Of a DNA stretch of 64,000 bases, positions 4,865-33,054 are shown piece by piece (position 1 is the stretch's first letter; each line of letters opens with the position of its first letter). Source of the DNA: Hirudinaria manillensis. Lineage: Eukaryota; Annelida; Clitellata; Hirudinida; Hirudinidae. Below the pieces are notes generated by a model, which made no database searches, was not told the origin of the DNA, and was given only the letters and a program-made list of their open reading frames with translations. The position numbers were made by a program, and so were the translations under genes. The stretch is taken from positions 3,304,142-3,368,141 of the forward strand of contig CM067532.1 of NCBI GenBank assembly GCA_034509925.1. The letters run 5' to 3'.

Positions 4865-5008
4865 GAAAAAAAAAATAATAATAACAATAATAATAATAAT
4901 AATAATAATTAATATTATTATATTATTATAATTATTATTTTTATTTATTAACTATTACTATTAGTATTTATTATTATTTAAAATTAATTATTATTACTAG
5001 TCAATATT

Positions 5009-5039
<31 letters not shown>

Positions 5040-5060
5040 TTGATATGAGGATGATAATAA
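4865..5060. repeat. (TAA)n/(ATT)n tract, 3' side of retrotransposon
   Basis: An A-run followed by AATAATAATAACAATAAT, then mixed TAA and ATT triplets to about 5040. It continues the orientation of the tract at 937-988 and then passes into ATT on the same strand, so single strands from this stretch can fold back. Confidence 0.85.
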
Positions 5061-5825
5061 AGATAAATAGATATTAATAGTAGTAATATAATCAACACAA
5101 AATACATACGGCAAACGTAGAGATTTTGAGTTTAAATCCAAGAAATCGTAGGCAGTATAATTAAAGTAATAATAATAATAATTAAAATGATTTCGTAATA
5201 AATTGAAAAAATTCATCCAATGAAAAGCATTTTCATGAACTGCAAGAACCAAGTGAAACGTTAGGAATAAATAAGAAATATTATATTAAAAACGTAAAAT
5301 GCAAATAATCGCAAATAATATGTATATAATAAATATTAATTATAAATTATATTTATGTAACTATAAAATATTATCTATATTATAAGCAATCAGAAATGAT
5401 ACATAATCACAATTTAAATTTGAAATAACCACAAATAACTCGTTAAATTAGAAATAATTATCTGTTGGAAGTGAAATTCCAAGAAGGCAAAAAGCACTCG
5501 AAACGTTGCAAAGCGGCGCATTTAATGCCGAGAATTGAGTCGAAATAATTGAAAGTCTTTGAAAGCAACTTCTGAATTTCGCTTGCTTCACGTTTCTTGA
5601 AATTATTTTAAATCTTTTTTATTTTTTTAAATAACGGAACAAATATTTATTTATTTGTTTATTTTATTTATTTACTTGTTTGTTTATTTGTTTGTTTATT
5701 TGTTAATTCAAATATTTAGTTTCACAAACGGATTAAAACATTCCATTTTAAAGAGAAGCAAAAGTGTTTGACATTCTCGAACTTTGAGATTACATTGGGA
5801 CTGTCATCGAGTTATTTTATACCAG

Positions 5826-5988
5826 CTGTTGGTTAGTCCTTGATGTGTTGTTGGTTAGTACTTGATGGATTGTTTGTATTGTTGGTTAGTACTTGATGGG
5901 TTGTTTGTGTTGTTGGTTAGTACTTGATGACTTGTTGTGTTACTGGTTAGTATTTGATGTGTTTGTGTTGTTGGTTAGAATTTGATTT
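5826..5988. repeat. degenerate ~30-bp minisatellite (GTTGGTTAGTACTTGATG core)
   Basis: Five to six imperfect copies of a unit built on GTTGGTTAGTACTTGATG plus a GTTTGTGTT spacer, with units of about 25-35 bases. Two more diverged units occur at about 6398-6462, after an intervening AT-rich stretch, so the array was probably once longer. Confidence 0.8.
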
Positions 5989-6329
5989 TATTTATTTATT
6001 TGTTTATTAATTTATTAATATATTTACATTAATTAATTAATTTATTTATTTATATATTTACTCAAACACGAACAGAAGGCTTATGCAAACAGCTGTTTAA
6101 TTTCTCAAATGCACGTCAAGGAGTCTGACAAATCGTGATCTTTAACGAGCGATGCAAAACATGGATGATGTGACGATGGCATTGAGGAGAGAGTTCCACG
6201 TTTTGGAGTGAAAGTATTTAGCAGAGTTCGTTGTAAACAGTTCTGACTTTAATTTGAGGTGATGACTTGTTCAGGAGGATTAGGTAGTTATGTGAATGTT
6301 ATTATTTGTGAAATTTGTGATTGTGATAC

Positions 6330-6331
<2 letters not shown>

Positions 6332-6380
<49 letters not shown>
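6332..6380. repeat. (ATT)n microsatellite
   Basis: Uninterrupted TTA/ATT triplets of about 49 bases. Confidence 0.9.
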
Positions 6381-6381
<1 letters not shown>

Positions 6382-8110
6382 TTATGCAGTTGTTTGCGAT
6401 GTTGGTTGGTAGTGATGAGTTGTTTGTGTTGTTGGTAAGTATTTGATGAGTTGTTTGTGTTGAAATAGTTTTATTGAATCTTTATATTTACGATTTGAGC
6501 GATATTAGGTTGAACCTGTTTTGGAGTTTATACTTTTCACCTTTGAATTGACATTTAAGTTGAAGATTTATATTGAATAGTTTGAACGACCGAAAAAGTT
6601 TTGATAAGCATTTCATCGACTGAACAATTGACGTGGACGACTTAATAAATGATTATTTAAGTTATTTTTATGAATAATTCAGAAAAAACATTTCCCCCGC
6701 TGCCGATTTTATTTCTTAAAATTGGCAAATGAGGTTTTCGTAGCGCAAAATCTGCATCGTGTTTAAAACTGATTTCAAAGTAAATTTTCTCTTCAAACGT
6801 CACTCAAAAATTGTTGTAATTTGATTCTTGAACTTGTCATCTGTTTATCTTTTGCGCTCAGAATTTACATTTAATTAAATTATAAATTATAATAATTATA
6901 AAATGTTAAATTATAAATAATCTGTTTATCTTTTGCGCTCAGCATTTTAGCATTTTAGCATTTGATTATCTGATTTGAAGATCTGCAATATTTAATAAAA
7001 TAATTAATAATTACAAATAATTACAAGAATTCTAAACTCGTAACATTAAATTACATTTATTTCTTTATTTGTAACATTAAATGGATTAAAATGAATCTGC
7101 AAAAAGCATTATAAAACTGCAACCAGACGCTTGATAACAGAATACGTGTGGATGAACGGGCACTTTTTTTGGCAACAATTATCATAATTTCTTATATGTA
7201 AAAATTATGAATATATATAAATTATTATATTATTTCTTTATGAGGACATTATTATGAATATAATTATATATAGAAATTATGGCTTATTAATTGCGTAATC
7301 GAAATTCTTTTTCATCATCTCAGAGCTTTCTGATCCTCTGGTAACGATGCGAGATAATATATTTTATCATAACATTTGTTCGTCATTAATTTCAGGATTA
7401 TTAAATTATAAACTGTTAAATTATAAATAATCTATTTATTATTAAAATATACAATTAAATGATATATCATAATTCTTAATTTTCGCTTAACACACTTTCT
7501 CCTATGTGTTTCATAACAACAAATTGATAAGGTTTGGTGATGTCGATTCGTAACGTTTAATGATATCTGATGGTGAAGACGACGATGAAGATGATAATAT
7601 CTGGCAGACATTCTGGAATTGCTGGGATGCATTGTTGCGTTTTGGGTTTTTTTTTATTATTTCTTTTTCATTTCTTCCGGTTCGGAGTTTACTGATAAAT
7701 CAAAAGATGGACGGACCAATGGATGGATGCTGAATCAACCGGAAGAGTATAAATATGACGATTATGATGATAGATACGTGATATGATATTGGATGAAAAC
7801 GACTTATAATAATTAATATTTCTCTTTCAGATTATAAATTAATTCGCAATCAAATGTTCAAAAATCACTTTTTTTCAGCAAAAAATAAATTATGGATTAC
7901 GCGGCTCCCTCGAGAGAACCAATCATGGTGGGTGGTTGAGTTGTATTTGCTCCTGATGATGATTAATTAAACATTAAATCCTGATAACGATTAGTTGTTT
8001 ATTATTATGAATTATTTAGTCTTTATTATATTAATTAAAAATACATTCTTTAACACATGTATATCCTCGATAGACATGAACTTCGAAAGGTGAATGAAAA
8101 AATTATATTA

Positions 8111-8212
<102 letters not shown>

Positions 8213-8609
8213 AATTGGGTTAATTAATAACGCTGAATAACAAAACAACAAATAAAATATATTTAAGGATAACTTAGTATCCAATAAATGTTTTTTTATG
8301 TTTTATTTCGAATATGTAAACCATAATTTATCTCCATCAACCCCAGTTCTTGAAATATCCACGCTATAAAATATTTTAAATACATTATTTGAACATGCAC
8401 AACATCGCAAATTTTGCAAAAACGTTTTTGTTGGTTATGACCACGCTTAATGTTAAACGTAAACATGAACCTGATGTCAAATAAATAAATAAATAATGAC
8501 ACGAGTGAAATTAAATATCGATTCAATTGGTATTTAAACCAGATTGATGAAGACGAACCACCAAGCAACAAGAAAATGAGTTTCACTCGTGTTGCTGTCG
8601 TTGTTACAT

Positions 8610-9470
8610 CAACGGTGAGAATTTATTATTTTATGATTTTTAATTATTATTATTATTAATATTCAACGGAGAGAATTTATTATTTTATGATTTTTAATTA
8701 TTATTATTATTAATATTCAACGGAGAGAATTTATTATTTTATGATTTTTAATTATTATTATTATTAATATTCAACGCTGAGAATTTATTATTTTATGATT
8801 TTTAATTATTATTATTATTAATATTCAACGGTGAGAATTTATTATTTTATGATTTTTAATTATTATTATTATTAATATTCAACGGTGAGAATTTATTATT
8901 TTATGATTTTTAATTATTATTATTATTAATATTCAACGCTGAGAATTTATTATTTTATGATTTTTAATTATTATTATTAATATTCAACGGTGAGAATTTA
9001 TTATTTTATGATTTTTAATTATTATTATTATTAATATTCAACGGTGAGAATTTATTATTTTATGATTTTTAATTATTATTATTATTAATATTCAACGGTG
9101 AGAATTTATTATTTTATGATTTTGAATTATTATTATTATTAATATTCAACGGTGAGAATTTATTATTTTATGATTTTTAATTATTATTATTATTATTACT
9201 ATTCAACGGTGAGAATTTATTATTTTATGATTTTTAATTATTATTATTATTATTACTATTCAACGGTGAGAATTTATTATTTTATGATTTTTAATTAATA
9301 TTATAATTACTATTCAACGGTGAGAATTTGTTATTTTATGATTTTTAATTATTATTATTATTAATATTCAACGGTGCGCTTATTATTTTATGATTTATTA
9401 TTATTATTATTACTATTCAACGGTGAGAATATTATTTTATGATTTTTAATTAATATTATTATTATTATTA
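8610..9470. repeat. 54-bp minisatellite, 16 copies
   Basis: Sixteen tandem units begin at 8610, 8664, 8718, 8772, 8826, 8880, 8934, 8985, 9039, 9093, 9147, 9204, 9261, 9315, 9369 and 9418, each starting CAACGG. The basic period is 54. Units of 51 and 57 differ by one ATT triplet, and the last units are shortened. Positions 6-7 of the unit vary between GG(T), GG(A) and GC(T) variants that cluster in the left half. Each unit contains an (ATT)n stretch and a TTTTATGATTTTTAA block. There is no spacer diversity, so it is not a CRISPR array. Confidence 0.95.
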
Positions 9471-9559
9471 TTATTTTATATAATGGTAACATGATTATTA
9501 TTGAGTGAATAATTAATTTGTAACAAAACATGGCAAATTATTTTGTGATATTGTAACGT

Positions 9560-9560
<1 letters not shown>

Positions 9561-9647
<87 letters not shown>

Positions 9648-9668
9648 TTAATAATAATAATAATAATA
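9561..9668. repeat. (TAA)n microsatellite
   Basis: About 108 bases of ATA/TAA triplets, nearly perfect. The tract lies about 90 bases right of the minisatellite and is on the opposite triplet strand to the ATT in its units. Confidence 0.92.
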
Positions 9669-10151
9669 TATTATTTCAATGGATTGTTAATCAGGAAATT
9701 TATTTTAATTCTTCAATTACATTTCTTGGTGAATCGCGAATTAAGTTTTAGTTGCTCGTTAAAATTTCACTCGAATTTTAAATGCTTTTTAACGATTGGA
9801 ATTTCTTTTTGAAAAAAAAAACTTATAATAAAAATAAAAATAATAATAATAAAAATAATCATCACCATCATGTCAGTAATAACAATAATAATAATTAGTA
9901 TAGTAATGTCTATTTTATTACTACTTCAATAATATATATATTATATATAAATATATTATTTATAATAATACAATATAAAAGAATAATGAATATTATTATT
10001 ATTATCACCACATAATTAATATATTTAATCGTCATTAAAGTGACGATCTTGAATATTGGTTTGCAGAAGCGATTTTATAATTAATAGAATTTCAACAAAC
10101 CTTCCTCGTAGGATTTGCGATTCAGACTTGATTCACGTGATAATGACAGTG

Positions 10152-10207
<56 letters not shown>
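10152..10207. repeat. (ATT)n microsatellite
   Basis: Perfect ATT triplets of about 55 bases. Confidence 0.9.
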
Positions 10208-11227
10208 ATATTTAATTAAAAGGAATGTTGCCTAATTATGACGATCTCATCAGAGACACATCACCTTCACAAAATACTGTTGAACAACTTCTAATCAATT
10301 ATTTATTCATTTATTTCCAAGGAAATATCTTAGGTATACAATTAACCAAAAAATATTTGATAAATAATTGCACTGGAAAATCTTCCGCCATGAACTGTTT
10401 AATGTTTTTTCCGATTGAATAATAAATTTAATAAAATAAAATTAAAATTAATAAACAAAATTCAACTGAACTCACAGTTATCGCTGAAATTTGATAACAG
10501 CTCATAAAAGGTTTTAACTGTGACAAGCCGGGCTCATTATTATTCTGTATAATTTACTACAAAAGCGTTTAAATATTAATGAGATAATAAAGTATCCATT
10601 AATATTTAATATTTGATCAATTATCTCGACAACACACGTGATCATGCTCGAGTGATCTACCTCTCGATGGAGATTTTCTTAAGAGTAAACTTTGACCTCA
10701 TCGCCCTACTGACGATGTCGCAATGACATCATGACGTCATCACGTCTATCAATGCAATGCTCATTAATTATTCATGAGATTATAATAATGGCCTTGCTTA
10801 TAACTTTATTAATTATAAATAATAAGCCATGACGTTAGTTCCATGTCGAACGTCAAATTAACTCGAAGCTTCAATGTTCAATTGGTAATTAAGAAACGTA
10901 TACTAGGATGTACTGTGATAATAAATTATGTTAAAATATTATTTAATAATTATTATTTGATGATTACTTTTCTGTCAGTTTATGGCGTTTAATTTTGCTG
11001 GCGAATTGGTGTTTTATTGCTTTTTTAATCCATTTTGCTTTTCGTATCGTCAGAACTGTGCAAACCACCCAGGGGATCCTTTCCTAATAACAACAACAAC
11101 AAAATAATAATAATTATTATATTATTATACATTGTTATCAAAAATAATATAATTTTTATATATAATAAACGCAATAAATAAGATATATAAGCACTGAGAT
11201 TGACGACGAAGAGGATGATGACCACTT

Positions 11228-14200
11228 ATGACAATTACGACGACGACGATGATAATGATAATGACAATAACGACGATGATGATGATGATAATGATGCTTC
11301 AGATTCTATTAATCATCGGCCTGGGTGTGGGTCTCGGCCTTGGTTTAAAGAAGGGATGTGGACAGCAACCATCGTCCTGCTTCAAAGAGTTTCAAAATGT
11401 TAAAAATCAAGACCAAGTCAATGAAACGAAGATTGTAAGATGTCCATCACGATCCAAACTCCAATGTCCTGCAGGGTGAACGTCCTATTTATTTATTCAT
11501 TATTCATGACTCTTATTAGTTATTCATGATTAGACACCGAATTTAACATCTATAATTTATATGGTATTTTTTATTTATGGGTATTAATGAAATGAAATAA
11601 TAGGCAGTAGTCTATTTAATTTTGGATAGTTTTTTGTATTTTCTCACAAAATTGATTTGAATTTGTTTTTTCGCCAGCATCTTATTAAAATTCTTGACTT
11701 TAAGTCAAATAAAATAAAATGAGAATAATTTTTAAAATCAAAATTTCCAGGAAATCCCAGCCTCCTTTGATCGTCGTGTCCTTGGACGGCTTCAGAGCAG
11801 AATATTTGCTGAGGAACATGACGCCCAACCTTAGGTTCATTTCAGACTGCGGTGTCCACGCACCCTTCATGAGGGCAACGTTTCCTACCAAAACATTCCC
11901 CAACCACTATACCATGGCTACAGTGAGTAGCTCATCATCATCGTCATCGTCGTCATCATCATCGTCACCGCCATCGTCATCGTCGTCGTCATCTTCTTCG
12001 ACAGGGTCTGTACACCGAGAGCCACGGTATTATCGACAACTTTTTCTACGACTGGCTGAACAATCGAACTTTCAGTCTTTCAACTCCTGAAGTCTTCAAC
12101 AAGCGCTGGTACAGCGGGGAACCTGTTGGTCTCGACTTTTAAGTTTTTATTTTCCATCATCATTATTTTTTAAATTATTTATTTAAATTTATAAACAATT
12201 TGTCAAATTGATGTCTGTTCAGTTGCATTCTAAAACTTGATGATGTTATGTAATATTCAATACAACAATACTCAATTATTATTATTATTATTATTGTTAT
12301 TATTATTATTAATAGTATTATAATTATAATTAGGATGACATTGTCATTATTGTATATCAAAGTCTCAAATTATAATATTTAATATTTAATATTTAAGTCA
12401 CGTTTAACTCACCTTTTGATATTTCAAATTTCAAGATATAATAAACAAAAAAATAAAAATATAAAATAAAAATTAAATATTATATTAATATTAATATTAA
12501 TAAATAATTATAAATATTAATATTAAAATATTGTAATAATTTCAAATTTATTTAAATATGTATTTTTTCAAATAATTTTTTAATCCTTTAAAATCTATTT
12601 TTAAATATTTTAAATTTTAAGATCTGGAACACCGCAAAAAAATCAGGAAAGAAAGTAGTGGGTATGATGTGGCCAGGGTCTTCTGTTGACATTCAAGGTT
12701 TCATGATTTTCTTTTTTAAATTATTAATATTTTTAAAATATTTGTTTAAATTACTAATAATTATTTTAAATTATTTTATAAATTATTAATAATTTAAGTA
12801 TTAAAAAAAACTTCTATGAAGTTTTTTTAAAAATTATTTCGAAAATCAATTTAATCTAATTTAATTTTATTTTTATTGATTTCACTCAATCGATCTCCCA
12901 ACTCGATCGTAACTGTCGCAATTATTTCTAATTGAAACTTAATTAAAAACAAAGATTGATTTCTGAATAATATTTTTCTACGAAATAATTTTAAAAATCG
13001 TACGTATTACGTAATGTTTATAATAACTTAATAATAATAACAAAAGTAATTATAATAATAATAATAATCATCGTAACCCTAACAACAACAACAACGATAA
13101 TAATAATAATAATAATAATAATAATCATCATCATAATAATAGCTTATGAATGGAAGCAATTACTTTCAGATATGAGACCCGATGCCTGCTACGATTACAG
13201 CGGGTTTGAATTTGTTCCACTTCAGCACTTCAGAGTTTCATTTCACAAAAAATCAAAATTTATTTTGTATTCCTTTGTCTCGACAGAAAACTTAAATTAT
13301 TATATTAAATATGTTATAATAAGTATTAATATACATTAAATTGACAATTATTATTATAGAAATTTACCAAATTGCCAATAATTAATATGCAAATATATTA
13401 AATAGACATTAATTGTTATATAAATAAGCTAAATTTATGAAATTAAAGTGTCAAAGATGTTGTCTTAGACATTTATTAAAGAATAATAAAGCCATGTTAT
13501 GTGACGAATGGTGGCAAAGAATAAAAAATTCTCAACTTTCAGTTCACTCGGATACAGAGGCAGAATAGAAGAAGTTCTGACTTATTTTGACTCGAAAGAC
13601 GCTTCTACGCATCCAGATCTCGTACTAATTTACTTGGAACAGCCAGACAAAGCTGGTCACGACGGTGGACCTTACGGGGATTGGGTTGGTTGCCAAACTC
13701 GATCGATCGAACCAAAGGATGGGTGACATTGCAGCAGTACTGCAGCATTAATGGCAGCTGGGCGTCATGAGTTGTGTTCGATACCTGGCCTGACCCACTT
13801 CAGGGAGCGCTATGCAAATGGGGATCGATTATGAATTGCCTTCACATCCCGTCCGAATTGTAACCATATGGCACTTAAGTGATTGCAATTTCGATGTTGA
13901 ACATCAAATTTAAGATCGTATGTGACCTTTCTTTGGCAGATTCAGGGAAATTTGACACTCGTTGACAACTTGATTGGTACTTTGGTCAACGGGGTCATGG
14001 AAAGAGGGTACAAAGATTGCGCCAACTTTATCGTTGTGGCTGATCACGGTTTGTGGAAAATATGATTTTTTCTTTTAGAAATTGTCGTTAAAAAAATCAT
14101 TAAATATGAAATAAAACTTGAAACCAAGAATAAATCGCAAAATCAATTCGGATCAGCGAAGAGCTTAAAGAAATTGCAATGGTATCACAACCGAGTAAAG

Positions 14201-17200
14201 GAAATCAGAAGCAACGAAAATGAATATTGGATTAAATAAAAAAAAATCGCATAAAATCAGAGGTGATTTAAGAAAATCTGAGCGTGATTTCATTTATTTT
14301 CTCCAGGGATGGACAAAATGGACTGTGGAATGGCTATCAACATCTCCCAATATTTGGACCCAGAAAAATATTTTGTTTACGGGGGTTTTCATTCGAGAAT
14401 TTCAAGTAAATATCTCATGGATGTCAATAAGAGAGCATTTTATCCCAATCCAAACCCAGGTAACAAAATGTCAATGCAGGTACATGTGTGCATGACCTAT
14501 TTGTGACCTAAATAAGGGTGATGCTGGACATGAGTTTCATGTGGATGTCGGTCATCAAAGCATTTTTATGAATTAAAATGCTTTGATTTTGTTTGAAACC
14601 AAGCAATTAATTCCATGTATTTCTAAGAATTTCACGTCAAAGTCATCATGAATTAATGAGTTTAATGCTTTAAGTGAATAATAAACCAAACGTTTTTTAT
14701 AACCATTTGTTTATAATTTATCAATATTTTTTAACACTTATTTTTGAAAGACTAATATAATTTACAAATAAATTCTCCTTTAAATCCTAATTGGTCACTT
14801 AAATCCTCATCTGATTACCGAAAGTGCCCCTGACTGAAACACTGTCGAAACTTTCCTGCAAGTCGTACAACGGTACGAAGAACTGGCACCTAAGGACACA
14901 CGCCAAGAAGGACTTGCCAAAGAGATACCATTACTCGAACAATCCAAACATCGATGAAGTCGTCCTTGACATTCAACCCGGCTTCGTTGCTGGGGCGTGA
15001 GTTCAAATTAATCTCAATTAATTTATTATCTTAGAAGTTTAAATCTTTCTTTTCTTTAAATCGCTTGAGAATTATGGTTAGAATCATTAGTAAAACAATT
15101 GGCATCGTCATCATTATTATTCAATTTGATTCATTATGTATTCATTATAATTCTTTAAATGTTTGTAAAAGTGACAATACAGAAATCATTTCCAGTAGAT
15201 TTTCTTAGATTCTTCTTAAATTCTGCTTTTATTAACAGGAATAATATCGTTTTAATGAATTAAAACACGATATGCATTAAAATATTTAATTCCAAACATT
15301 GTTTAATGACAACAAAAGCATGTATTTGTTAATTTATTAAGTCTGTTACGGGCATAACGTTTAATTACTGTTCCATGTTTCAGTTTTCCAGGCAAATGTA
15401 CAATGAAAATGGGTGGTCACGGAGCAGACAACACATACGGAAGCATGCATGTCTGTATTTCATACAAATTATACTATGCACGTTTGTATTGCACTTAAAT
15501 TATAATATGCATGTTTGTAATGCATGCAAATTATGCTAGGCATGTTTACACTGAAGCATTTGTACTACATGGACATATTGTACATCGAATACTATCACAA
15601 AGTAATTTCAAACGATTTCGTTTCAAATTCAAACGTTAAGAAAATAAGGAAAAACAAATATTTCGTAATTATTAAAATTTATGCATTTAAAATTAAAGCA
15701 TTTAAATTCATATTTTCAGGCCATTTTCGTTGGCATGGGTTCATGGTTGAAACAGAAATTAGTCGAACCGTTTGAAAACATCGAACTGTACAACTTGTTT
15801 GCAGGTTATTTGTGAAACAATTGTTTCGTTTTTTAGTTGTACAACGATGTACAACTTTGAACAACTTTGAAGATCACTTCCTGCATTTTAAAATCAATTT
15901 CTTTGTTCCTTCTTTCCGGAAGTCCTTGATGCAAATTTCTTACTTATTAATGTCGTTTATACGTAAATGTTTTTTATTTATAATATAAACTTATTTTAAT
16001 GTTTCACATAAAATTCACGAATTTAATTCCCTAAAGATCTGCTGAAAGTAAAGCCGTCTGCAAACAACGGAACTTACGGCAGACTCCACTTCCTCATAAA
16101 AGACAACGATGGAGAAACATTGATTCCTGATCCAAACAAAGTCAATTATAAAACTTGTTCTATTCCTGAACACGTGACTGAAAGAATGAAACTGAGAAAT
16201 AGTTCGGGACTTCCGCCCATCAACTCTTCATGCGTTAGAAACAATTGTTGAACCGTTTCATTGGTTATAATTGAGTTGTTATTTTTATTATTATTTCTGA
16301 TTATTTACATTTTAGAAATAACTTAACCGTAATAAATACATAAATATTTGTGGAGGTTTGAAACAAATTTATTTATTTTTTAAAGTTTGGAGGTCAGAAA
16401 GAAGAGGAGTTGGACAAGAAGTTGATTCTGACGAAATCTGAAGAAATGGAATCCCTTGCTTTGAATCTTCCGATTGAGTTTCCAGGATCGAATGTTGCAC
16501 GAAATTGTTGTAAATTGATTCAAAAAGATTACATATCTTCCTTCAATCCAGAGTTTCACATGCCCCTGTGGACTTCATTCACGGTCGTCCACAACGGGGT
16601 GATTGAAATTAATAGCTAAAATGGCTAATGACAATTTAAAATTCATTTAAATTTCTTACGCATTTAGTCTTTAATTGATTCAACGCTTTTAATAAAATTA
16701 ATTATTTATTTGAATTTTTCATGAATTAAATTTCAGAGTTCAAACGTCTTAAAGAAGGATTGGTTGTCGGACAAAGACGTGAACAAGTGTTGCACGAGAG
16801 CCGATGTCAGAACAGGTGAAACGTTGAATTACTCGACTTTTGAAAACAAGAAACTCGGATTAAACAGGGCCTTCTTGCATCCACCCGGTTGGTTGTTTAA
16901 CTTTGTTTTCAAGTATTTTCTTTAATTTTTATTATTTCCGCTTCTAAATACATTTTATTTATTTTTCTTTTTAGCCTTATTTCATATTTATCCTCATAAT
17001 TAACACTCATTATCTGCATAAATGAAGATGTAACGTTTGTGTCTTATCATTTTTCTCTGAGAGTTCTTCACCGATTGCTTTGAAATTTTGACATAAAGGT
17101 GCACTAGATTAGACGATTTTATATCAGAAAATGTGTGTCTTTGATTTATTTCTTTTCAATTTAACAAGATTGAGCCACGGATAATATTTGATCAATTCAT

Positions 17201-20200
17201 TCATTTAAATGTGAATTAATCATTAATTTAATATTAAATCAGGTTTCACAAAATGCCCTGATGATGTCTCAAGCAGTCACATTTCATCAAATGTCGTTCC
17301 AATGTACGAGGATTTTGAACGAGGTAAAGATGATGATGATGACGACGATGACGATGGCGATGGTGATGATGAAGGTAAATACTTAATTATTAATGCTGGA
17401 TTTATGTTGATAAGGCGTGTGGAAGGAGATATTGCACTTGTTGGAAGAATATTCGGAGAAGTACAATAGAATCAACGTACTCGTTGGTCCAGTTTTTGAT
17501 CAGAATAGTGACGGATTGGCTGATTCTTGGCAGGACATCGTGGAGTAGGAATTTGAATTTAATCTTTTCATAAAATGTTTTAGCATATTTTAAATGTAAT
17601 ATTTATTTTATATTTACAATTTGTCTGAATTAATTGTAATGTTGCTGTTGCTTATTATGTTCGTAATTTAATAGGAAAAATGTATTTTAAGTCTATGCTC
17701 TTACGGAGACATTTCCCAGTGTAAAACATTGACAATTGTTGATATAACATTAAATAATATATAATATTATATATATATATATATAATAAATAATATAATT
17801 AAAATGATGATAATAATATTAAAAATAAAATTAAAAAGAATACTAATCTGGAATGAATAATAGCATAAAAACATTATTCGAGCATCTAATCTCAGCAACA
17901 GCCAACAATAAATCATTTCCATTCGGCCATTATTTGTCTTTAAGTTTGGAACGCCACGAGTTTCGTCATTTTTAAAAGTTTGTTTCAAAAATATCATCTT
18001 TTAACCTGTCGTCACACGATCAGTTATTTGCTATTATCTCTTGTAATTTATCCTTCCATTGGTTTTTATATCGGCCCTAAAATCTGTGATGGTATTCTTA
18101 TAGCAAATATAGTTAGATATCAAAGTTTTTAGTTATTTTATTTATTAAGATTCTCTTAATTCGTAATAGGACGTCCTCTAGCGGCAGTTTCCCCTTACGA
18201 TGATTTCCTACTCTTTTGAATTTGTAGTCCGTTGTACTTTTTTAAAAAAACGTGTAATAATAATATAAAAAAAATAACAACGACAACATTAACATCAACA
18301 ACATCGTCGTCAATAACGACAACATCAACATCTACAACATTAGCAACAACAACACCAACATCATCATCAACAACATCAACTACCACTCATCAGATTTACA
18401 GATGAAACGAAGCAGGTGGCCATTCCGACGCATTATTTTCTTGTCATCGCGAGATGCGAAAGTGAAAGCATTGATTGGAAATGCCTGAATTCATTCCACG
18501 TTCTTTCCTTCCTCCTTCCGCACGTCAGAGATCCTGGAAATTGCTGGGTTAGACGAATATTTTCCAAAACAATAGTTTGCAATAACTAAAATATTTTTTT
18601 TAAATTTGATATAAAAACAAAATAAAATGTCACAAATAATATATAAAAAAATGTTTTGTATTATGATGATAAAATATAATATAAAATATAATATCGTCAT
18701 ATTACGTAGCATTTTTTTTAAATATAAAAGATAATGTAATAATAAAAGAATGTAACAAAACTCGACGACATGTGAAATGCACAATACTAGTTTGGCTTAT
18801 TACTAATTTAACACTACATTATTATTATACTATAATTAATACTTATAAGCCAAGCCACTGCTTTCAACGATCAGGATAAGAGAGTGGACAATTACTTGAG
18901 AGAGAACGTGGCAAGGGTGAGAGACGTTGAACTACTGACCGGACTTGAACTCTTGGGTGCCATTAGGGACACCGAAACGAAGATGAGGCAGTTGACCTTT
19001 CTGGCAGAAGAACTTTGGCCCCGTTGGTCCTGGTTTGACCTTCGACCCGAATCGTGCCCCGTTTTCGTCGATGATCAAACAAAGTAGGTTTTTCTGCTTT
19101 ATTTATAAGCTTTGATTTGATTTAACAAATAAATGCTTTAAAAATGCATCTTAAAACCTATTCAACCCAATAAGGAAAGCCGTGCGATAACAACAGAAAC
19201 AACATTTAACATTCTCCTATAATTTAAAATGAATAAAGTTTATTATATTGTATTATATTTCAACATTTAACCAACATTAACATCGATGTAAATGTTAAAT
19301 AACAAAGTAATATTTTAATTAAATCAATATTAACTTTAAAAATAAATAAATGATGATATTTATGAATTAATTAAGTTAATATTAATAATATTTCAGATGC
19401 AAGGATAAGAAATTTCCGCTGCTCCTGATTTCATTGGACGGCTTCAAACCTGATTATCTCCTCAGGAACCTGACGCCAACTCTGGCGCGACTCCACGAAT
19501 GCGGTGTCAGCCACTCATCCATGACCTCCGTGTATCCAAGCATGACCTTCCCGAATCACATGTCCATAATCACGGTGCAATTTTTTTAAATTTCAGTTTT
19601 CAATTCACTTTTAAAACAAAAAAGACTCAACCATGTAAATGCTTATGTTGACATGACTTGACGATAAGTCATTGTAATAACTATAATAACAATTTTTATA
19701 ATACGTTATAATATTAAATGATAATTTATTTAAATAGCGTAAGATTTTATATAAATACACATTATGGGACTAATAAATTAGCCTTAATAATAACAGTAGC
19801 ACATTGCACATATATAACCGATGCTATTGCAATATATTATAATATTGATAAATAAATTAACATAACAAATGACCTTTGAACTATCACCATCATAACCAGG
19901 GTTTGTACCCCGAAAGTCACGGCATCGTGGACAACAAAATGTTTGACGTGACACTCAACGAGTCCTTTTTCCTTGACGCTCCGTCGTCACTCAAACCTCA
20001 TTGGTGGAATGGGGAGCCGGTGAGGGCGTGTCTTCTTGTTAAGAGATGAATAATTATAAGTCGATGAATATTCATGAATTAATTCATTCATTCATTCAAT
20101 AGCTCTGGTCGAGAGTAATTGCTAACAATAAGAAAGCAATGGTCCTTTATTGGCCCGGTTCAGATGCTGAAATCAATGGTTTGTCTTTAATTAAAATAAT

Positions 20201-22195
20201 TTAATTTTATTAATAAAATTTAATTTAAAAATATAAACTCGTATGTTGTTTTATAAATATTTATTTATTTATTTATTTAGGCACACGGCCGACGGATTAT
20301 GAGCCTTATGCCGAGTGAGTGAAAATTCTCTTGTTAAACACATTTACGAAATATTACATAATTAAATTAAATTTATTAATTTACTGGTTAAAAAGTTAAC
20401 TGATAAAAATTACTGCTAGGAATGCACCGTCACAATTCAGAGTGGACACCGTACTCGAATGGCTGGACATTGGAAAGGCAGACTTGGCCATTATTTATTT
20501 TAGTCTCGTCGATAATGCAGGACACAACGGAGGACCTAATTCTGTCCAGGTGGAAATTCCCAGTTTCGCCTCCTTCGAGCCTACTTTCATTTCTTCGAAA
20601 TGTTTTTATAAATTATAAATTATAAATAATAATATAATATAATATAAGTATATAATAATAATATAAATATAAATAATAATATATTGTAAATAAGCCATGT
20701 ATACCGGAGGCGATAGTGACAAGTAATTCGTTAGTAATAGTAATAACATTAATTAAACAATTATAAAAAAATTATAAGGCAAGTATTTAATGTATTTTGA
20801 AGGTCAACGAATCCTTGGTTCAAGTGGACAAATCAATGCGTGATTTGATGGATGGAATTTACAGGATGGGAATGCATGAGTGCATTAATGTCGTTGTTGT
20901 CTCTGATCATGGTGAATTCCATTCATTCAATCATCAATGCTTTTGCTTAATTTTATAAATTAGTTTGATTAAATTTGATCATTTATTTTGTCTTTGTATG
21001 TCATTTACTATGTCAATATTGTGCTCTTATTAAGAGTAAATTTTAATGAGTTATTTTATAAACTTAAATAATCCTTAATAATATGATAGCTTGTTTAGAA
21101 TAACATATGAATTAGCCATAAATAATTTAAACCTTTGATTTGATTTATTCATGTATCGCTAGGAATGGCACGCATCAGTTCAGACATGGAGATAAATTTC
21201 AAGGAGTTATTGCACGAAGATGTCCTCAACAGAGTCTACATCTACGAAGGCGCTTCTCCGAGAATTTCCACGAGGTACTCAGGAGACCAAAGAACTATGA
21301 TTCCCGTGGGAGGAAACAGAGGTAATATCAAAATAGCAAAAGGAGAATTCATAAAGCGCTCCAGATTGTCAGTTATCATCCTTACTATTATTGCCAAAAC
21401 AAATTAGTATTCAATAACTTATGCAATACATGCAAACATATATTGTGTGTATTAGGCAAAGATATTCTTATTAAACAAAGATAAACTGCCAATAAAAAAT
21501 GTTAAATAACATTCATGTAATTTATCTTGTTAACAATTGCAAGAATCTTTAAATTAAACAGGTATTTTCCAACTGGGTGTGACTTTTTACAACTTGTCGG
21601 TTTAAACTTGATAAAGCTTTTATAAATTTTTGTTCGAAACCCCAGCAACATAATTTAATGAATTAATAATTTAATGAATTAATAAATAAATAATTTTTAT
21701 TTAAAATCCTGACAACAACAATATAAACAAAATTATTTACGTCCAGTATCTAAAGAGGACCTAGTAAGGAATTTAACTTGCAAAGTAGACGACATGGTGC
21801 CCTACTTGAAAGAAAACTCACCAAAAAGATTTCATTACTCGAACAACGACAGAATTGATGAAGTTCTGATCTTTCAAAACGAACCTTGGATAGGAACCAA
21901 GTTGGTTAATTGGAATTAATAAATGTATATACATTTATATCACATTGTTTTTGTTGTTAATTGAGTTATTATTGGAGTATTTAAATCCGTTTGCCTGTCA
22001 CGAGATAGTAATATGTTTTGTTTATTTTATTAGATTTTTGTTTGGAATAGTTTTTACTTCAACAGGTTGATTTGACATAATTTGTTGATTAATTTCAAAT
22101 TATTACTACTCGCAGAAATACTGACTGGAAAACCACTAAAGGTCATCACGGATGGGATCCACTTTATGAATCCATGAAAGTTCGTTTTAATTAAT

Positions 22196-22254
<59 letters not shown>

Positions 22255-24400
22255 TTATTAAATTAGTAAGAAACAAGTTAATTAATCTGCCACTCAACAG
22301 GCTCTGTTCATCGGTTGCGGTCCAAGTTTTAAAGTGAAAACTCACTACAACGAATCTTTTGACAACATCGAGTTATACAATCTGATGACCCGTAAGACAC
22401 CATCAACAGTCCATTGTTTCTCCGATGACATTAACGTCATCTATCGAATCTATGTTTAGATTTACTCGGAATCAACCCGGCACCGAACAATGGCACGTGG
22501 GGATCTTTGCACCATCTCCTCAGGGATCCACCCAAGAACTTGACACCTCCCTCATCATTGAATCTCCCCGAATATTACGAGATAAACAAAACTTGTCCGT
22601 TTCCTGCGACTGATGAGGAATTAGAAGAAGCAGCCAACCATTCACTTTATGGTTGTCCAAAGCGTACCTACGACGTAAATGCAGTTATTCGTAAAACATT
22701 CCTATTAATTTGAAGAAGTCTTTTATTTTTGCCTAATTCCGTGGCTCTCTTAAATGATGACAAAAAAAAAATATTTATTCTAAAAATTATAAAATTTCAC
22801 TTAAAATTCAGTACAAAAAGCTCAACAAGACGTCGATGGAAAAGTTGGAGCTGGAGAAGAAGCATCTGAGCGACGGGAAACCATTCTCTCATCTTCAGAA
22901 TCCTCCTCATCTCTGCATCTTGCATCACAACGATTTTATTTCAACCTACGATCAGCAACTCAAGCTTCCCCTTTGGTCAGCATTCAGACTGTCGACACCA
23001 GCGGTGAGTTAGTTAATATTTAATAATAATAATACTCAATAAATTGCGATGCCAATCAACATGAAATTGGCACGCATTATGGCAGAGAACGTAAGCTAAT
23101 AATTTAATCAACTTTGAAAACCTTTTTCTCAGACGAAATTGAACTGGTCCTTCTCTGACTTCATCCCAGACGTTCGTGTATCACCTTCGAGTCAATTCAA
23201 CTGCACTGAAATTGAAGAACTGAAAACCAATATTTCATTCTTTCCTCTTTTCCATCCCGGTAAAGAATTTAAATCATAGTTACTGATTGAGTGAATCCAA
23301 TTGATTAATAAAACAATTAGTAACTGATAAATTAAGAAGGAAATTAATTTAAATTCTTATAATTATATTTTTAATTAGCTACAAATTTTTAAATGTTTTT
23401 TCAAAGATCTGTCAATGAATATGGATAATAAAGACAACGATGCTCTCCTCCTGACAAACGTTGTTCCCATGCACAAGTCGTTCTTAAGAGGTTACGTCAT
23501 TCTTTTAATTGGTTTTTTTTTTAAATTAAAAACTATATTTGTTTATTTATTCAATTATATTAGATATTTGGTCGGAAGTTCTGAAGAAATTATTCCATCA
23601 TTTTCCTGCTGGATACTTCATCGCTGGTCCAATCTTCGACCAAAATGGCGAATGCATTGCAGATTCTTTGGCAAAGTAAATTAAATTTGTCCATGACATA
23701 TTATTATCATTGGCTTATTTAATCTGCTGTCAATAATTATTTATTTCTAGATTCACTCTTCCAAGCCATTATTTCATTATCGCCATCTCCAACTCCAGCG
23801 CAAGTCCAAATCTTGAGACGGCTTCCTTTATTCTGCCAAATTCATTTCAAAGTCCCAAGGAAGAATGCCAAGTCAGTTGATTTGATTTATTTATTTCATT
23901 AATAAGAGAAAATGACATAAAATAGAATTAGTTAATAAAAGAATGAGGATGCTGATGATGCCGAAAATGAGTCGAACATAAAGCTGTTCCTGCTAATTGC
24001 AAATCGTCCTGGTAGCCATGGCACGATTTGTTAATAGCGACGGTTAATATAATAAATATGCGAACTATCTATGTTAATATATAAATATATGAGCATTGCA
24101 AGACCGAGATTTGGAGATTTCGTACAATGCCTTTCCCGTTCAATCTTCAACGAGCTTTAAACATCAATTCCACAAATTTTCAATTCTGTACTTTAAACAA
24201 TCAGGTTAATGGAATCTTCTGTTAATTAAAAATTTCTTTTAATTCCACAGAAAACCTTCTCAGTGGAAAGGTTCATGTCTGCGCACAAAGCAAGGGTGAA
24301 GGATGTTGAAATCCTGACGGGACTTCAGTTTTTCACTCAAACTAAAGGCTGGGATTCCACGAGGAGTAGAACGTACATCACGATGAAAACCTTTGAGTAA
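11228..24400 (+). CDS. two-headed ectonucleotide pyrophosphatase/phosphodiesterase (fused tandem ENPP)
   Basis: Reconstructed gene of 35 coding exons, 4629 coding bases, 1542 residues, with GT-AG borders and matching phases throughout. ENPP enzymes hydrolyse phosphodiester or pyrophosphate bonds of extracellular nucleotides or lipids with two zinc ions and a catalytic Thr. Exon 1 (11228-11475) gives a hydrophobic anchor ([15 protein letters not shown]) then a short Cys-containing linker, so a type II membrane or secreted protein is expected. No somatomedin-B repeats are seen, unlike vertebrate ENPP1-3. Two full phosphodiesterase plus nuclease-like units follow (residues about 83-837 and 838-1542). 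Zinc and nucleophile residues are present in both: D95, T131, D252, H256, D299, H300, H421, and D852, T888, D1005, H1009, D1052, H1053, H1169. The start is uncertain. The frame opens after a stop at 11216 with many Met codons, and Met22 or Met23 directly before the anchor is equally likely. ATTAAA lies at 24458. Confidence 0.85.
11932..12000 (+). repeat. (TCN)n repeat filling an 82-base intron
   Basis: TCA/TCG triplets make up most of ENPP intron 2 (11923-12004). Read through in the frame of exon 2 it would add a poly-Ser run. At 82 bases, retention shifts the frame and ends soon after exon 3, so the poly-Ser frame is not a protein. Confidence 0.85.
13022..13140. repeat. mixed TAA/CAA/CAT triplet repeat in ENPP intron 4
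   Basis: AATAATAATAACAA, CAACAACAACAACGATAATAA and similar triplet blocks shortly before the acceptor of the 34-base exon 5. Confidence 0.8.
17329..17378. repeat. (GAT/GAC)n repeat in ENPP intron 15
   Basis: GATGATGATGATGACGACGATGAC-type triplets just after the donor of exon 15, inside a 91-base intron. Confidence 0.8.
18266..18390. repeat. (AAC/ATC)n repeat leading to exon 17 acceptor
   Basis: About 120 bases of CAACATCAACAACATC-type triplets that run to the acceptor at 18391-18393. The usual pyrimidine-rich tract before the acceptor is replaced by this A/C-rich repeat, which lowers certainty for the exon 17 border. Confidence 0.8.
19079..19133 (+). promoter_or_regulatory. possible splice-or-terminate switch between the ENPP units
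   Basis: Exon 18 ends ACA AA, followed by the donor GTAGGT at 19084. If the donor is not used, the next codons read AAG TAG, so translation stops at 19085-19087. An AATAAA polyadenylation signal lies about 40 bases on (19128-19133). Splicing gives the two-headed protein. Reading through and cleaving here would give a one-headed ENPP of about 838 residues. The arrangement is visible in the sequence; that it is used is inference. Confidence 0.45.
19397..24400 (+). other. ENPP unit 2 (exons 19-35)
   Basis: Exons: 19397-19574, 19900-20019, 20103-20178, 20281-20314, 20420-20549, 20803-20911, 21163-21321, 21747-21900, 22116-22179, 22301-22391, 22460-22674, 22812-23003, 23133-23259, 23407-23490, 23564-23675, 23751-23871, 24251-24400 (stop TAA at 24398). 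Landmarks are [19 protein letters not shown] (catalytic Thr kept), [45 protein letters not shown], an EF-hand-like loop ([12 protein letters not shown]), [10 protein letters not shown] and [13 protein letters not shown]. It has no start codon, signal peptide or anchor exon of its own: the frame upstream of 19397 closes at once, and the acceptor there is a good TTTCAG. This unit can therefore only be made as part of the fusion, or from an unseen upstream exon. Confidence 0.85.
22195..22258. repeat. (TTTA)n microsatellite in ENPP intron 27
   Basis: Perfect TTTA tetranucleotides, about 15 copies, between the donor at 22180 and exon 28 at 22301. Confidence 0.92.
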
Positions 24401-27418: not shown

Positions 27419-29895
27419 ATGAATCAAAAAAAGTATCTCAACAGCATTTTTCTTGGTCAGTATATTTGATGGTACAATAGTGGCTTAAAATGTGACTAAT
27501 CAAAAATTGAAATAATAAGATCTTTTATCTTTTAATATTTTTAAGCTCTTTAAATCTAAATTGTTGTAGCTGTCTTTTGTGCTTTACTGAGCATTGATTG
27601 CTGTCTGTGTAACAAAGTGGAGTCACCTCTTGGATCCAAAGCTGTGCTCAAATGTCGAGTTGATGGCATCCCTTTAGATTCTTCAACTATGGTATACCTT
27701 CGTCTTAACTTCTACAGTTACTTTTTTTTATTTAAAATTATTCATTGATGCAGCCATAACATGTTTTTTTAACAAAAGGTGGTTTGGGAGAATTCGAGAG
27801 GAGAAGTTCTGTCTTACAACACTAATCTAATGACTGGGGATTCAAGGTTTTCAGTTGTGAAACCATACCACACTGAATTCAACCTACACATTAACAATAT
27901 TAAGATGTCAGACAAAGGAAAATATACTTGCAAGGCACTAAAAAATACAGTACAATTCTCCAGCATCCAAGTTGAGCTAAATGTCTTGGGTATGCCTTTA
28001 ATTTTTTAATGATTTTAAGTTTTCATTTTTGTGAAACTTGGCTAATTAATTAACTCATAACTAACAGCTAATTAATTGTTCACCATTTCAGAATTAACTA
28101 AATCTACTTAATGTTCCTCAAAGTAATGACTTTATTCCAGTTCCACCAAAGGCAAGAAGCCCACACAATAAAAATATTTCTGTGGCTGAAGGGAAAGAAG
28201 TGACCCTTGAATGCCATGGCGAAGGCATCCCAGAACCAAAATTGGATTGGAGGTACCACGGGAAAGATTCTTCAGTGGAGGAAGGTTGGTGGTTGTCATT
28301 TGCAATTGCAAATGCAAAAGTATGCTCCATTAACAACCAATTTTTCAGCAATCAAAATGGATGATCCAACAAGATACGTGATCAAAAACATAACTTTGAA
28401 ACAGTCGGGGCATTATGAATGCCAAGCCAATAACAACGTTCCACCCATTTCGAGTGTTCACTATTTCATTGAAGTGCTTTGTAGGTATTAAATTTATGTT
28501 GATCTGTGGCCAATTGCTAATAGTAGTAAACGATGTAGCTGCACCTAGAATCCATGTTCCATACCTGAGGGTCGTGCAAAAAGTGGGCAGCTACATCTTT
28601 TTACAGTGCATCGTTACCTGGAATCCCGAGGGAGAATTCTACTGGGAACACGAAGGTCGGAGAATCGCGGATCCGCATTCCGTGTCAGACAAGTACAAAC
28701 ATTCCATGCAAAAGATTGGCCATTCCTGGAGTGCAGGACTCTTTGTGTTCCAATTCGACACTTCCGACGGAGGTCGCTATAGATGTCACGGAAGAAACGA
28801 CTACGGAACCAAACATGGTTCAATAGAAGTTGCAGGTAGACATTATTGACGTACAATGATAAAATGCAAGCAAAATTTATTTTAAGTTGTGGATGTTTTT
28901 TAAAAGCCTATGAAGCATCTGATGAGGTGGACGGACCAGACATGCCAGAAAGGATTACTGCCAGTCCTGGGAGTGATGTGATCATCTATTGTGAGGCTGG
29001 AAATGTTAAGCCTTCCTGGTCAAAGTGAGCTTGAATTTTAGTCCTTCAAGACAATATGAGGCTCGACCAGGATGCAAAGATAATTGCGAATTAATTGTGC
29101 TCCTTTCGTATGTTGTCTCATCACAAGAGAGTAATTTTAGAGATGTTTTCAGGCACACGATACCCATGGCAGACTATGAAAGCATACCGCTTGCTCCATC
29201 TGGAAAAACAGAAGGGTCCACAAAGTACCAACTCATTAAGGTGACAAATTTAAAAATCCTCTCAGTGAACAGACTTGACCAGGGATATTACATGTGCCAT
29301 GGCAAATACAACAAAACCTTTTATCTGTCCATAGCTGGTTGGTTTTTGGAATTGACAAGCTAAATTGGTTAAACAATTATGATGATTGATGTGAATAATA
29401 TGGATCTCTGTGAATAACTGCTATGAATTATGGGCAACATTTGAAGATTATAGCTAAAATTTTATGAGAGTGGCTCAAGGCTTGAGTATATAAAAGTGTA
29501 ACTGCATCAAGCCAATTATCATAGCAAGTCCTGACTAGCTAGTTATTCAACTGCTACTAGTCTAATTATTATTGACATCTCTTGTAATTATCGTATCTTT
29601 GTTGAAGCAGATTTGGAAGCATCGACATCGTGTGCTCAAGGTGGAGTCAGTTTAACAGTTGCTGTGGTCATTGTGGCCCTTGTGGCCTTTGTGCTCTGTT
29701 TAATATTTGTTATGGTGTTGGTGATCATGAGACGAAGGTACAAAAGAAGATTCAACACAAGCGGAGAGTCGATTTTGTAAGTTTGAAATTCTATGCTAAT
29801 GTCATGTGATTTAAATGTACTCGTGAGAAGTTGTTGATCGTTTTTTGTTATTTGTCAGGACGGGCAAGCATTCCTTAGTTGGTCACAAACTCTGA
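27419..29895 (+). CDS. single-pass membrane protein with four immunoglobulin domains
   Basis: Reconstructed from ten exons: 27419-27455, 27570-27691, 27779-27989, 28141-28284, 28349-28480, 28539-28835, 28907-29024, 29153-29337, 29611-29776, 29859-29895 (1449 bases, 482 residues). Residues 1 to about 26 are a signal peptide (YLNSIFLAVFCALLSID). Four Ig domains follow, with Cys pairs C41-C104, C148-C196, C239-C298 and C343-C402 and core Trp at 56, 160, 251 and 352. Domains 1, 2 and 4 are each split by an intron, and domain 3 is one exon. The transmembrane helix is about 427-455, followed by Arg/Lys and a 27-residue tail ending GHKL. Without the last splice (donor GTAAGT at 29777) the frame stops at once, giving a tail 11 residues shorter. 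It is likely an adhesion or recognition receptor at the cell surface. I cannot assign it to a named family. Confidence 0.85.
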
Positions 29896-30606: not shown

Positions 30607-33054
30607 TTACGGCGCGTCATCTCTCTTGAGTGGTATTTCGGTGTGTTCGGTACTTTCATAGTACATGAAGCACATAATGTAGACGGTCACAGTTGAGACA
30701 ATGACAGTGATGATGTACAAAATGAAGAAAACTCGATCAATTACGAGAGCAACAAGACGCCACTCCATGGCGTTTTTCTCCTTCGTATCTCTCACTTGGA
30801 GTCTGTTCATGAAGTTTCGCAAGACTTTCTTCACCTCTTTCACCTCAGACTCGATGCTGCTTTGGTAGCTGGTCACAATGGGAGGTGGGTGGATGGGTAT
30901 CATGGGTGGCTGGTTTTGTTCGTCGGTGTTCGAGCTGGACATGATGCAAAGCGAGGGAAGAGGGTGGTTCACTATGGGACTGTCTGGTCGCCCAATGACT
31001 AGGATGGAGGTTTCAATTATTAAAATGCCTAGCAAATCATCACTCACTTTATCAACATCGCTGCACTAACGCTAATGAATAATACAAAATAATTTGGAAA
31101 TATTGAAATTCATCGAGATACGAAGAAAAATGAGTAACCTTGCTGGGTGCTGCAGTTCACGGGTGAGGGTGGTTCCCATTTGTTATAGGGAAGTACTGGA
31201 GACTTTATGGTCTTTTCGTGATGACTTTTTCTTCCATCGGTTGTTCCGTCGATGACGTGGGTCACGTGATGCGTAACATGGTTTCTCCTCGGCTTCTTGA
31301 CGATATTCTTGCGCTGCTCCATGCAAAGGATGCGAGACAATCCTTCGATGGCCACCTGCCGAAGGAAATTATCTTTTGCAGGACCGCTCCTATACCAGTC
31401 GTAAATTTTACTTAATCTCAGACGTTACCTAGCAACGCGATCGTAAACGCTCGTAAAGATGCAAGGAACATCGGAGGCAAGTATCAATCGACGAAAGAAA
31501 TTTAAATTCCTCCGACCTTTTTTAGCCACTTGGGAACTTTGTTTCTCTTGTCATCCCTCTTGTGAAGGTTGATAACAGCCACGGAGATGAATGACGAGAG
31601 CGTGATCAGAACCATGTTCAGACAAAAGTAGGCTCCTTTAATGTTCGACGGAGAATAAATTTTATTTAAAATTTTACGGTCAGGTTTTGGGGATTAATTT
31701 TTTTAAGGAGAGGACTAAATGGATGAGCTACCTATGAGAGGTATGGACTTGGAGGCTGGCGTGGATACAGACAGAATTTTCAGGAGAAGGAAGAATGCCA
31801 GGAAGAGGTTTAATCCTAAAATGTGAAGTTTTATTTGAAAAAATAGAACTGTCATTTGAGGGTCACAAATCATTTAAGCGTGGGGCAATCGGTTCAAACT
31901 GAGATAAATTGATCGTATTCAGGGATTTAGGGGCTTGCCAACACTAAGCTTTTGAGGCTTCTGAATGAATCACTTCTCTTTTGTTTTTACTGAAAATTGC
32001 ACTAAAGTTTTTATTTATCTGAGATTTCTAAAAAAACATTTCAAAAGATTTTACATTAAGTCATGAACATATTCACAATACCGAGCAGCATTTTGGCGGG
32101 TGTTTCCGGTGGGAGCCAGAAGGAAACGAGAGTGAGTACAGAGAGAAGAACGCAGGGTATGATGAGGTTGAAAATGTGGGAGAAAGGGATCCTCTTCATG
32201 ATAATCGAGAATGTCAGATCGTAATAGGGCTGGATGCAACACGTGTAAACCTTCTTGTTTTTCCGACCAGGGTGACTCAATATTTTCCATTCGTTGCTTT
32301 CCAAATAATCCGTCAAATCGATCTGCAATGTTTACGGTTGGCACTAAAAACGGCAAAATCAGAGTTAACAGTTGCGTAACGATGCCAATAAAGGCGCTGT
32401 CAAACAAAATAAAGATGAATCACCAGTCCGTTGGAGCCCTCTGGCAAGTTCAAATCGAGCTCAAAACCATCGTAAGTCCAAGATCCGAACTTGAGGTGAC
32501 ATTTCTGGATGTCGAATGGAAAGTAGACGATGTCGATGGAACACGTGGACTTGAAAATGGCAGCCGGAAGCCACAAGACCTCCCCGTTGTGCTGGACAAC
32601 CGCCATTGCTTCTCTATGCTCCTTGAGTCTTTCGTCTGCGCTGTTTGTGCAAAACTTTGCATGTATTTGCATCTTAATCCATGTGTACAGGATGTTATTT
32701 AAAATAAGGAATAAAAGTAATTATCAGTAATATATTTATAATCGAATATAAACTTTTAGAATAAATATTAGAATATAGATAAAAATAGAATAAACTGTAT
32801 GCACTATAAATTTATCTCAACATGGCTCTCGACTGAAAACAATTTCTAAACGACATGATATAATGAACATAATGAATATAACGAATGAAGAAATAGAGAA
32901 TGAATGAATGAATGAAAGAAAGAATGAATGAATGGAATCCTCACAAGTTGTACAAAACAATGTCAGGTTTCCAGATCTTGGTGACAGGAACTCGTACTTT
33001 GGTGAGTTCTCCATAATCCTCGGGTTTCCATTTGAGCATGACGTCATTCCAGCT
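30607..33054 (-). CDS. nicotinic-type Cys-loop receptor, alpha-type, predicted anion-selective (5' exons missing)
   Basis: Seven exons in frame: 33054-32945, 32640-32424, 32322-32082, 31815-31732, 31635-31517, 31355-31139, 30998-30607 (1380 bases, 460 codons with stop). Shown: loop [10 protein letters not shown], Cys-loop [15 protein letters not shown] (two Cys 13 apart), loop [11 protein letters not shown], loop [14 protein letters not shown] with vicinal Cys (alpha mark), TM1 to TM4, and a final [13 protein letters not shown] helix. The TM2 entry reads [11 protein letters not shown] where cation receptors read PSDSGEKxxLG, so -2' is Pro and -1' Ala, as in anion channels. Position 9' is Leu. 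The exon coding the N-terminal strand and loop D Trp, present in the neighbour, is not found upstream. A possible signal-peptide exon sits at 33454-33409. Either the gene is broken, or it borrows 5' exons from the upstream gene (see findings). It would act in the membrane as one subunit of a pentameric ligand-gated channel. Confidence 0.82.
32886..32936. repeat. (GAAT)n microsatellite in receptor intron
   Basis: GAATGAATGAATGAAAGAAA-type tetranucleotides directly beyond the donor of the [14 protein letters not shown] exon (minus strand). Confidence 0.85.

Follow-up and report, generated by a model that had tools for sequence, protein, structure and literature searches.

A leech locus predicted to encode a double-headed ENPP, with a hybrid exon at the join of its two units

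Introduction

The zinc site of NPP3 is built from D168, T206, D326, H330, D373, H374 and H483, and the membrane form of this enzyme dimerises, most likely through its transmembrane helices, according to its structural description (PMC6052110). One catalytic unit per chain is a criterion for the NPP1-3 group, and the known ENPP relatives compared here are single-headed. The salivary ENPP5 proteins of a vampire snail are reported to be 441 residues long (PMC4460706). A double-headed ENPP has not been found among the matches listed in the open-licence PMC literature (titles and abstract openings), and two papers on leech genomes do not use the words ENPP and pyrophosphatase in their main text (PMC7191736, PMC10087013).

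In the leech Hirudinaria manillensis (Annelida, Hirudinidae) we have analysed a stretch of 64,000 nucleotides (assembly GCA_034509925.1, contig CM067532.1, positions 3,304,142 to 3,368,141), which is called the window throughout and from whose first letter all positions are counted. One gene on its forward strand is predicted to encode a double-headed ENPP, a reading to which we assign a probability of about 0.73; the figure is not higher because of better-scoring splice sites near the join and a candidate exon upstream. The gene is probably intact and fused. If this is true, the gene provides a clear example of a hybrid exon, in which the last part of one enzyme and the first part of the following one are encoded together.

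Gene Structure

The hand-built gene model (11228-24400, forward strand) consists of 35 exons that form a single frame of 1542 codons with a terminal stop only (CDS 4629 nt, 1542 amino acids), and all 34 introns follow the GT-AG rule. Splice sites have been picked by eye with homology in mind, and the start at 11228 is a provisional one, as regards both the 5' UTR and the actual start ATG. The GC content amounts to 44.6% in the exons and 24.2% in the introns. Rfam and tRNA scans of the window have returned nothing.

Exon 1 (11228-11475) comprises the start region, a hydrophobic segment and the linker with the unit-1 Cys, and ends in phase 2. Its hydrophobic segment, with a hydropathy of 2.57-2.59 over 15 residues depending on the choice of start, could serve as an anchor or as a cleaved signal alike. 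The first coding bases (11228-11296, forward strand) form a GAY-type simple repeat translated into Met, Thr and Ile, and ten in-frame ATGs of exon 1 are possible starts.

Unit 1 extends from exon 2 to the end of family homology in exon 18 (11751-19012, forward strand) and has been delimited by the gene model, the PF01663 and PF01223 domains and the zinc site. Its exons 2-7 lie at 11751-11922, 12005-12124, 12622-12697, 13170-13203, 13543-13684 and 13940-14048, exons 8-13 at 14307-14459, 14825-14996, 15384-15450, 15720-15804, 16037-16233 and 16386-16598, and exons 14-18 at 16737-16887, 17243-17323, 17415-17544, 18394-18547 and, for the first part of exon 18, 18875-19012. Unit 2, delimited by the same features, spans exons 19-35 (19397-24400, forward strand), of which exons 19-24 are placed at 19397-19574, 19900-20019, 20103-20178, 20281-20314, 20420-20549 and 20803-20911, exons 25-30 at 21163-21321, 21747-21900, 22116-22179, 22301-22391, 22460-22674 and 22812-23003, and exons 31-35 at 23133-23259, 23407-23490, 23564-23675, 23751-23871 and 24251-24400.

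Each of exons 2-18 has a single counterpart among exons 19-35, and vice versa. Introns 1-17 agree in phase with introns 18-34 at all 17 positions, for which the probability by chance is 1.7e-8, and four of the 17 exon pairs are equal in length (120, 76, 34 and 109 bases). Introns 1 and 18 are each of phase 2. An initial sequence-only reading of this DNA had claimed two ENPP units in one frame, 17 exons per half with common intron phases, several pairs of equal length, and phase 2 at both the exon 1/2 and the exon 18/19 junction; all of this is borne out by the model. The one anchor of that reading would be the hydrophobic segment of exon 1, which may equally be a cleaved signal. The shared phases show common descent of the two units and are not in themselves proof of one gene.

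Domains and Relatedness of the Two Units

The type I phosphodiesterase domain (PF01663) scores 275 bits in unit 1 and 271.2 bits in unit 2 (cut-off 23), followed in each by the nuclease-like domain PF01223 (42.3 and 33 bits, respectively; cut-off 23). A somatomedin B domain (PF01033) has given no match at E 0.001 in either unit, and the double ENPP has therefore not been classed as a strict member of the NPP1-3 group; moreover, its gene model places two catalytic units in one frame, as against the one of the NPP1-3 criterion. By sequence, the closest solved relatives of unit 1 are a venom phosphodiesterase and then ENPP3, and that of unit 2 is ENPP3.

The two units are identical at 243 of 734 positions by BLASTP and at 33.5% over 681 columns by MAFFT. 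This divergence rules out an assembly doubling, so that the earlier statement that the halves differ and the duplication is no assembly artefact has stood. With identities to rat ENPP3 of 38.0% (unit 1) and 37.1% (unit 2) in the MAFFT alignment, each half resembles ENPP3 more closely than it resembles its partner, in keeping with an old event or with fast change. In a tree of the phosphodiesterase part with eight rows, ENPP4 and ENPP5 among them, the two units group as sisters with 92/89, a value that is not starred, and both sit on long end branches (1.28 for unit 1 and 1.55, the longest, for unit 2). A duplication within the lineage is likely from this tree.

The Join Between the Units

The last 71 bases of exon 18 (19013-19083, forward strand) reach beyond the family C-terminus with a GC content of 53.5%, which falls to 25.0% in the next 84 bases. 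Exon-like GC up to the donor is by itself not deciding between a fusion and a separate gene, because coding sequence would reach this point in a gene that ended at the TAG as well. On the basis of its GC content, the phmmer match to ENPP1 and the MAFFT column C145, this tail has been read as a bridge followed by the linker of unit 2, which makes exon 18 a hybrid of the unit-1 C-terminus, about a dozen bridging residues and a unit-2 linker with its Cys. The tail encodes ESC, with the Cys codon TGC at 19055-19057 (position counted by hand).

When exon 18 is joined to exon 19, the linker Cys stands 23 residues before the catalytic Asp of unit 2, and the same spacing has been counted in unit 1, ENPP1, ENPP2 and rat ENPP3 on a MAFFT alignment whose rows had been cut at the linkers beforehand and which thus leans towards this result. 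In phmmer, the exon 18 Cys is aligned ungapped to the linker Cys of ENPP1 (6wet). Two of the four ENPP3 alignments listed (9nir and 6c01, human-type) pair the Cys of TKC instead, at the cost of a two-residue gap, and the other two start after both the exon 18 Cys and the TKC Cys. The Cys content of the predicted protein is 2.1%, and the agreement of one such residue at one position counts as modest evidence for a fusion.

Intron 18, the fusion junction, measures 313 bases (19084-19396, forward strand). Its donor reads AAA followed by GTAGGT, with an in-frame TAG across the donor, and its acceptor reads TATTTCAG followed by A. Among the 34 sites of each kind, leave-one-out scoring puts this donor in 22nd and this acceptor in 15th place, and the splice sites at the exon 18/19 join are in the normal range. 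Three of the 21 GTs in 18875-19396 outscore the used donor (6.1), namely those at 18916 (9.8), 19022 (8.8) and 19181. The first two lie inside exon 18, and their use would give this exon an end of phase 0 or phase 1 that does not match the frame of exon 19; the third lies beyond the stop in intron 18. The AG at 19466, inside exon 19, scores 7.6 as an acceptor against 6.9 for the used site, and its use would remove the region of the catalytic Asp.

These features also bear on a tentative alternative, which we consider possible, namely that the locus yields several products: head 1 alone by reading into intron 18, head 2 alone, with the signal or anchor of exon 1, by a splice from this exon to exon 19, and the double form perhaps as a minor isoform. 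Reading through the exon 18 donor does lead to a stop at the next codon, and exon 1 joins exon 19 in frame. However, at six of the eight phase-2 donors of this gene the very next codon on reading through is a stop, so that the stop is no sign of an isoform, and we have dropped it as proof of a gene end for the same reason. Splicing of exon 1 to exon 19 would place the Cys 25 residues from the Asp, against 23 in the five other cases, and would add a third Cys, and is disfavoured as the main splice. Unless the double form is never made, such a set of products would be compatible with a gene for a double-headed enzyme.

Search for a Separate Start of Unit 2

In a further reading, which we hold to be unlikely, two neighbouring single-headed genes would be present, the first ending at the TAG of intron 18 and the second having its own promoter with either a start exon or an SL leader. 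Tandem copies would have common introns equally, and a stop directly follows exon 18. Against this, a scan of 16601-19349 for phase-2 start exons with a hydrophobic segment has given none among 23 candidates; 18 of these fall short of 15 residues, and among the five that are long enough to be scored the highest mean hydropathy is 0.39. A start exon of its own for unit 2 in the 19084-19396 interval, which the sequence-only reading had named as evidence that would speak against a fusion, has thus not been found in scans of the genomic sequence to 19349.

A wider scan (5001-19349) has yielded 43 hydrophobic candidates above 1.6, of which 17 have a donor score of 3 or more. Ten of the 17 are exon 1 with alternative starts and seven lie upstream at 5896-8218, so that no hydrophobic phase-2 start candidate with a donor score of at least 3 occurs between exon 1 and 19349. 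Both scans cover single-exon starts. Room for two genes is left by multi-exon or weak-donor starts, as the remaining 26 of the 43 candidates score below 3, and by the stretch at 7570-7679 (forward strand), upstream of exon 1, where an ATG, a hydrophobic segment and a phase-2 donor of 8.5 make up a fair candidate exon that could in principle serve either unit and could also have arisen by chance.

Exon 19 taken alone begins with an out-of-frame ATG that meets a stop after three codons, and it lacks an in-frame ATG upstream of the catalytic Asp, which disfavours SL trans-splicing onto this exon. As the start of a separate gene, unit 2 would also lose the linker Cys supplied by exon 18.

Active Sites of the Two Heads

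The claim, made earlier from the letters alone, that both centres keep all zinc ligands and the nucleophile Thr has been confirmed by alignment to rat NPP3: all seven zinc-site residues, as listed in the corresponding section of the NPP3 paper (PMC6052110), are present in unit 1 and likewise in unit 2. N227, F207 and Y290 are also found in both units, and T379 and T482 are changed in both. At K205 unit 1 keeps Lys and unit 2 has Met, and at D276 unit 1 has Ser and unit 2 keeps Asp. As the Lys at K205 may bind the outer phosphate and D276 is the adenine-contacting residue, the two heads may differ in preference, with K205 and Ser at D276 in head 1 and with D276 and Met at K205 in head 2.

Among the cysteines, C429 is kept in both units. 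Its partner C818 is Cys in unit 2; the alignment has a gap there in unit 1, which carries a Cys close by. At C381, unit 1 has Cys and unit 2 has Ser. The column of C478 holds no Cys in either unit, although unit 1 has one four residues earlier. The EF-hand-like residues 752, 754, 756 and 760 are D, N, D and D in unit 1 and D, N, E and D in unit 2.

For NPP3, the kinetic data quoted from the same paper give a drop of only about six-fold in kcat/KM for ATP upon the K205A exchange (PMC6052110), and therefore Met at this position need not mean a dead head 2. That the fusion is expressed with a catalytically weak or dead head 2, kept as a structural or regulatory partner, would accord with Met at K205, Ser at C381 and the longest end branch in the tree, yet is quite improbable given the complete zinc site, the retained N227, F207, Y290 and D276, the clean frame over 17 exons, the mild effect of K205A, and the long branch of unit 1 as well.

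Origin and Genomic Context

An exact internal duplication of exons 2-18, as originally suggested, has not withstood the analysis, since exon 18 is a hybrid and the halves have diverged to the identity given above. Furthermore, no fusion would result from copying exactly these exons, because the last exon of a one-unit gene has a stop and no donor. The hybrid exon 18 therefore points to breakpoints probably located within exon 1 and within the last exon, as left by a crossover or a deletion with one end in each of them; alternatively, two tandem genes may have been fused by deletion.

Profile searches have covered the whole assembly (148,429,096 bases in 23 contigs). One of these contigs, C23 (15,581 bases), reads by eye as mitochondrial, with COX1, COX2, COX3, ND6 and CYTB in an annelid order. 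PF01663 has given ten matches (all 12 candidates scored), seven in the double ENPP gene and three on contig C9. The latter include an ENPP4/5-like gene (best PDB match ENPP5), in which a long catalytic exon has been noted, unlike the many exons of the double gene, and a weak match that we take, by eye, to be a PIG-O-like gene. PF01223 has been found three times at one locus on contig C8 and not at the double ENPP gene; as this search missed the gene, it is weak for counting relatives. The single PF01033 match also lies on C8, a contig other than that of the double gene.

Elsewhere in the window, a retrotransposon-like stretch at 1268-4695 (forward strand) contains a frame of 841 codons, in which a reverse transcriptase domain (PF00078) is encoded, and a second, overlapping frame of 336 codons without a Pfam match, and the copy therefore looks frame-disrupted; it resembles R2-type elements. 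Exons of the ligand-gated ion channel type occur at 30607-36762 (reverse strand), where PF02931 is above its cut-off at 36061-36762 and PF02932 is just above at 30610-31065 and just below at 34597-35268 and 36061-36762, and these are possibly two neighbouring acetylcholine-receptor-like genes. An open frame at 28400-28846 (forward strand) carries an immunoglobulin I-set domain (PF07679) behind a hydrophobic stretch.

Proposed Function

That the locus encodes a double-headed enzyme is favoured by the uninterrupted frame with its regular introns, by an exon 18 that is exon-like in GC to its donor and brings a tail Cys at the family spacing, by normal-range splice sites at the join, and by an exon 19 without an early in-frame ATG together with a preceding region (16601-19349) in which the scan has found no hydrophobic single-exon start. 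It is weakened by the pairing of the TKC Cys in 9nir and 6c01, the better-scoring GTs and AG, the TAG at the donor, and the candidate at 7570-7679.

In the main transcript, exon 18 would be spliced to exon 19, and the protein would consist, in this order, of a hydrophobic signal or anchor, head 1 with its phosphodiesterase and nuclease-like domains, the short bridge, and head 2 with the same two domains. It would face the outside, and both heads would cleave nucleotides, dinucleotides or UDP-sugars by the two-zinc threonine mechanism. From the chemistry of the family, the product is most likely an outward-facing enzyme that frees nucleoside monophosphates at two sites, and the tandem may amount to a covalently linked counterpart of the dimer that membrane NPP3 is reported to form. 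A role in feeding is speculation. It is doubtful, if conceivable, that in this blood-feeding leech the covalently linked heads split the work, one acting on dinucleotides or UDP-sugars and the other on the released nucleotides, so that a single tethered molecule would remove purines that activate platelets, be it at the cell surface or in the saliva.

Comparison with Known Enzymes

From a tandem that occurs in nature one could learn what is gained by linking two heads firmly, and it would be possible to switch off either head and leave the other active. Each unit resembles ENPP3 and ENPP1 of the NPP1-3 group in the succession of phosphodiesterase and nuclease-like domain, the full set of zinc residues and the spacing of the linker Cys, and both units share with them the insertion loop holding the D276 and Y290 positions, which is absent from ENPP2. 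Unlike ENPP3 and ENPP1 with their one unit, the leech gene has two in a single frame; a somatomedin B domain has not been found in either of them, and the pocket is altered by Met at K205 in unit 2, by Ser at D276 in unit 1 and by the changes at T379 and T482 in both. ENPP2 (autotaxin) agrees with the leech units in the phosphodiesterase and nuclease-like layout, the zinc site and the linker Cys; the leech units, however, keep the nucleotide-pocket loop that autotaxin is without, and a lysophospholipase D role is therefore less likely. The ENPP4/5 type gene on C9 of the same genome has a phosphodiesterase domain of the same family, but a single one, with the catalytic part largely in one open exon and no nuclease-like match. 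Two homologous catalytic heads in one ectoenzyme have also arisen by duplication in the two-domain angiotensin-converting enzyme, which belongs to an unrelated family with unrelated chemistry and to which the predicted leech protein would be similar in layout only.
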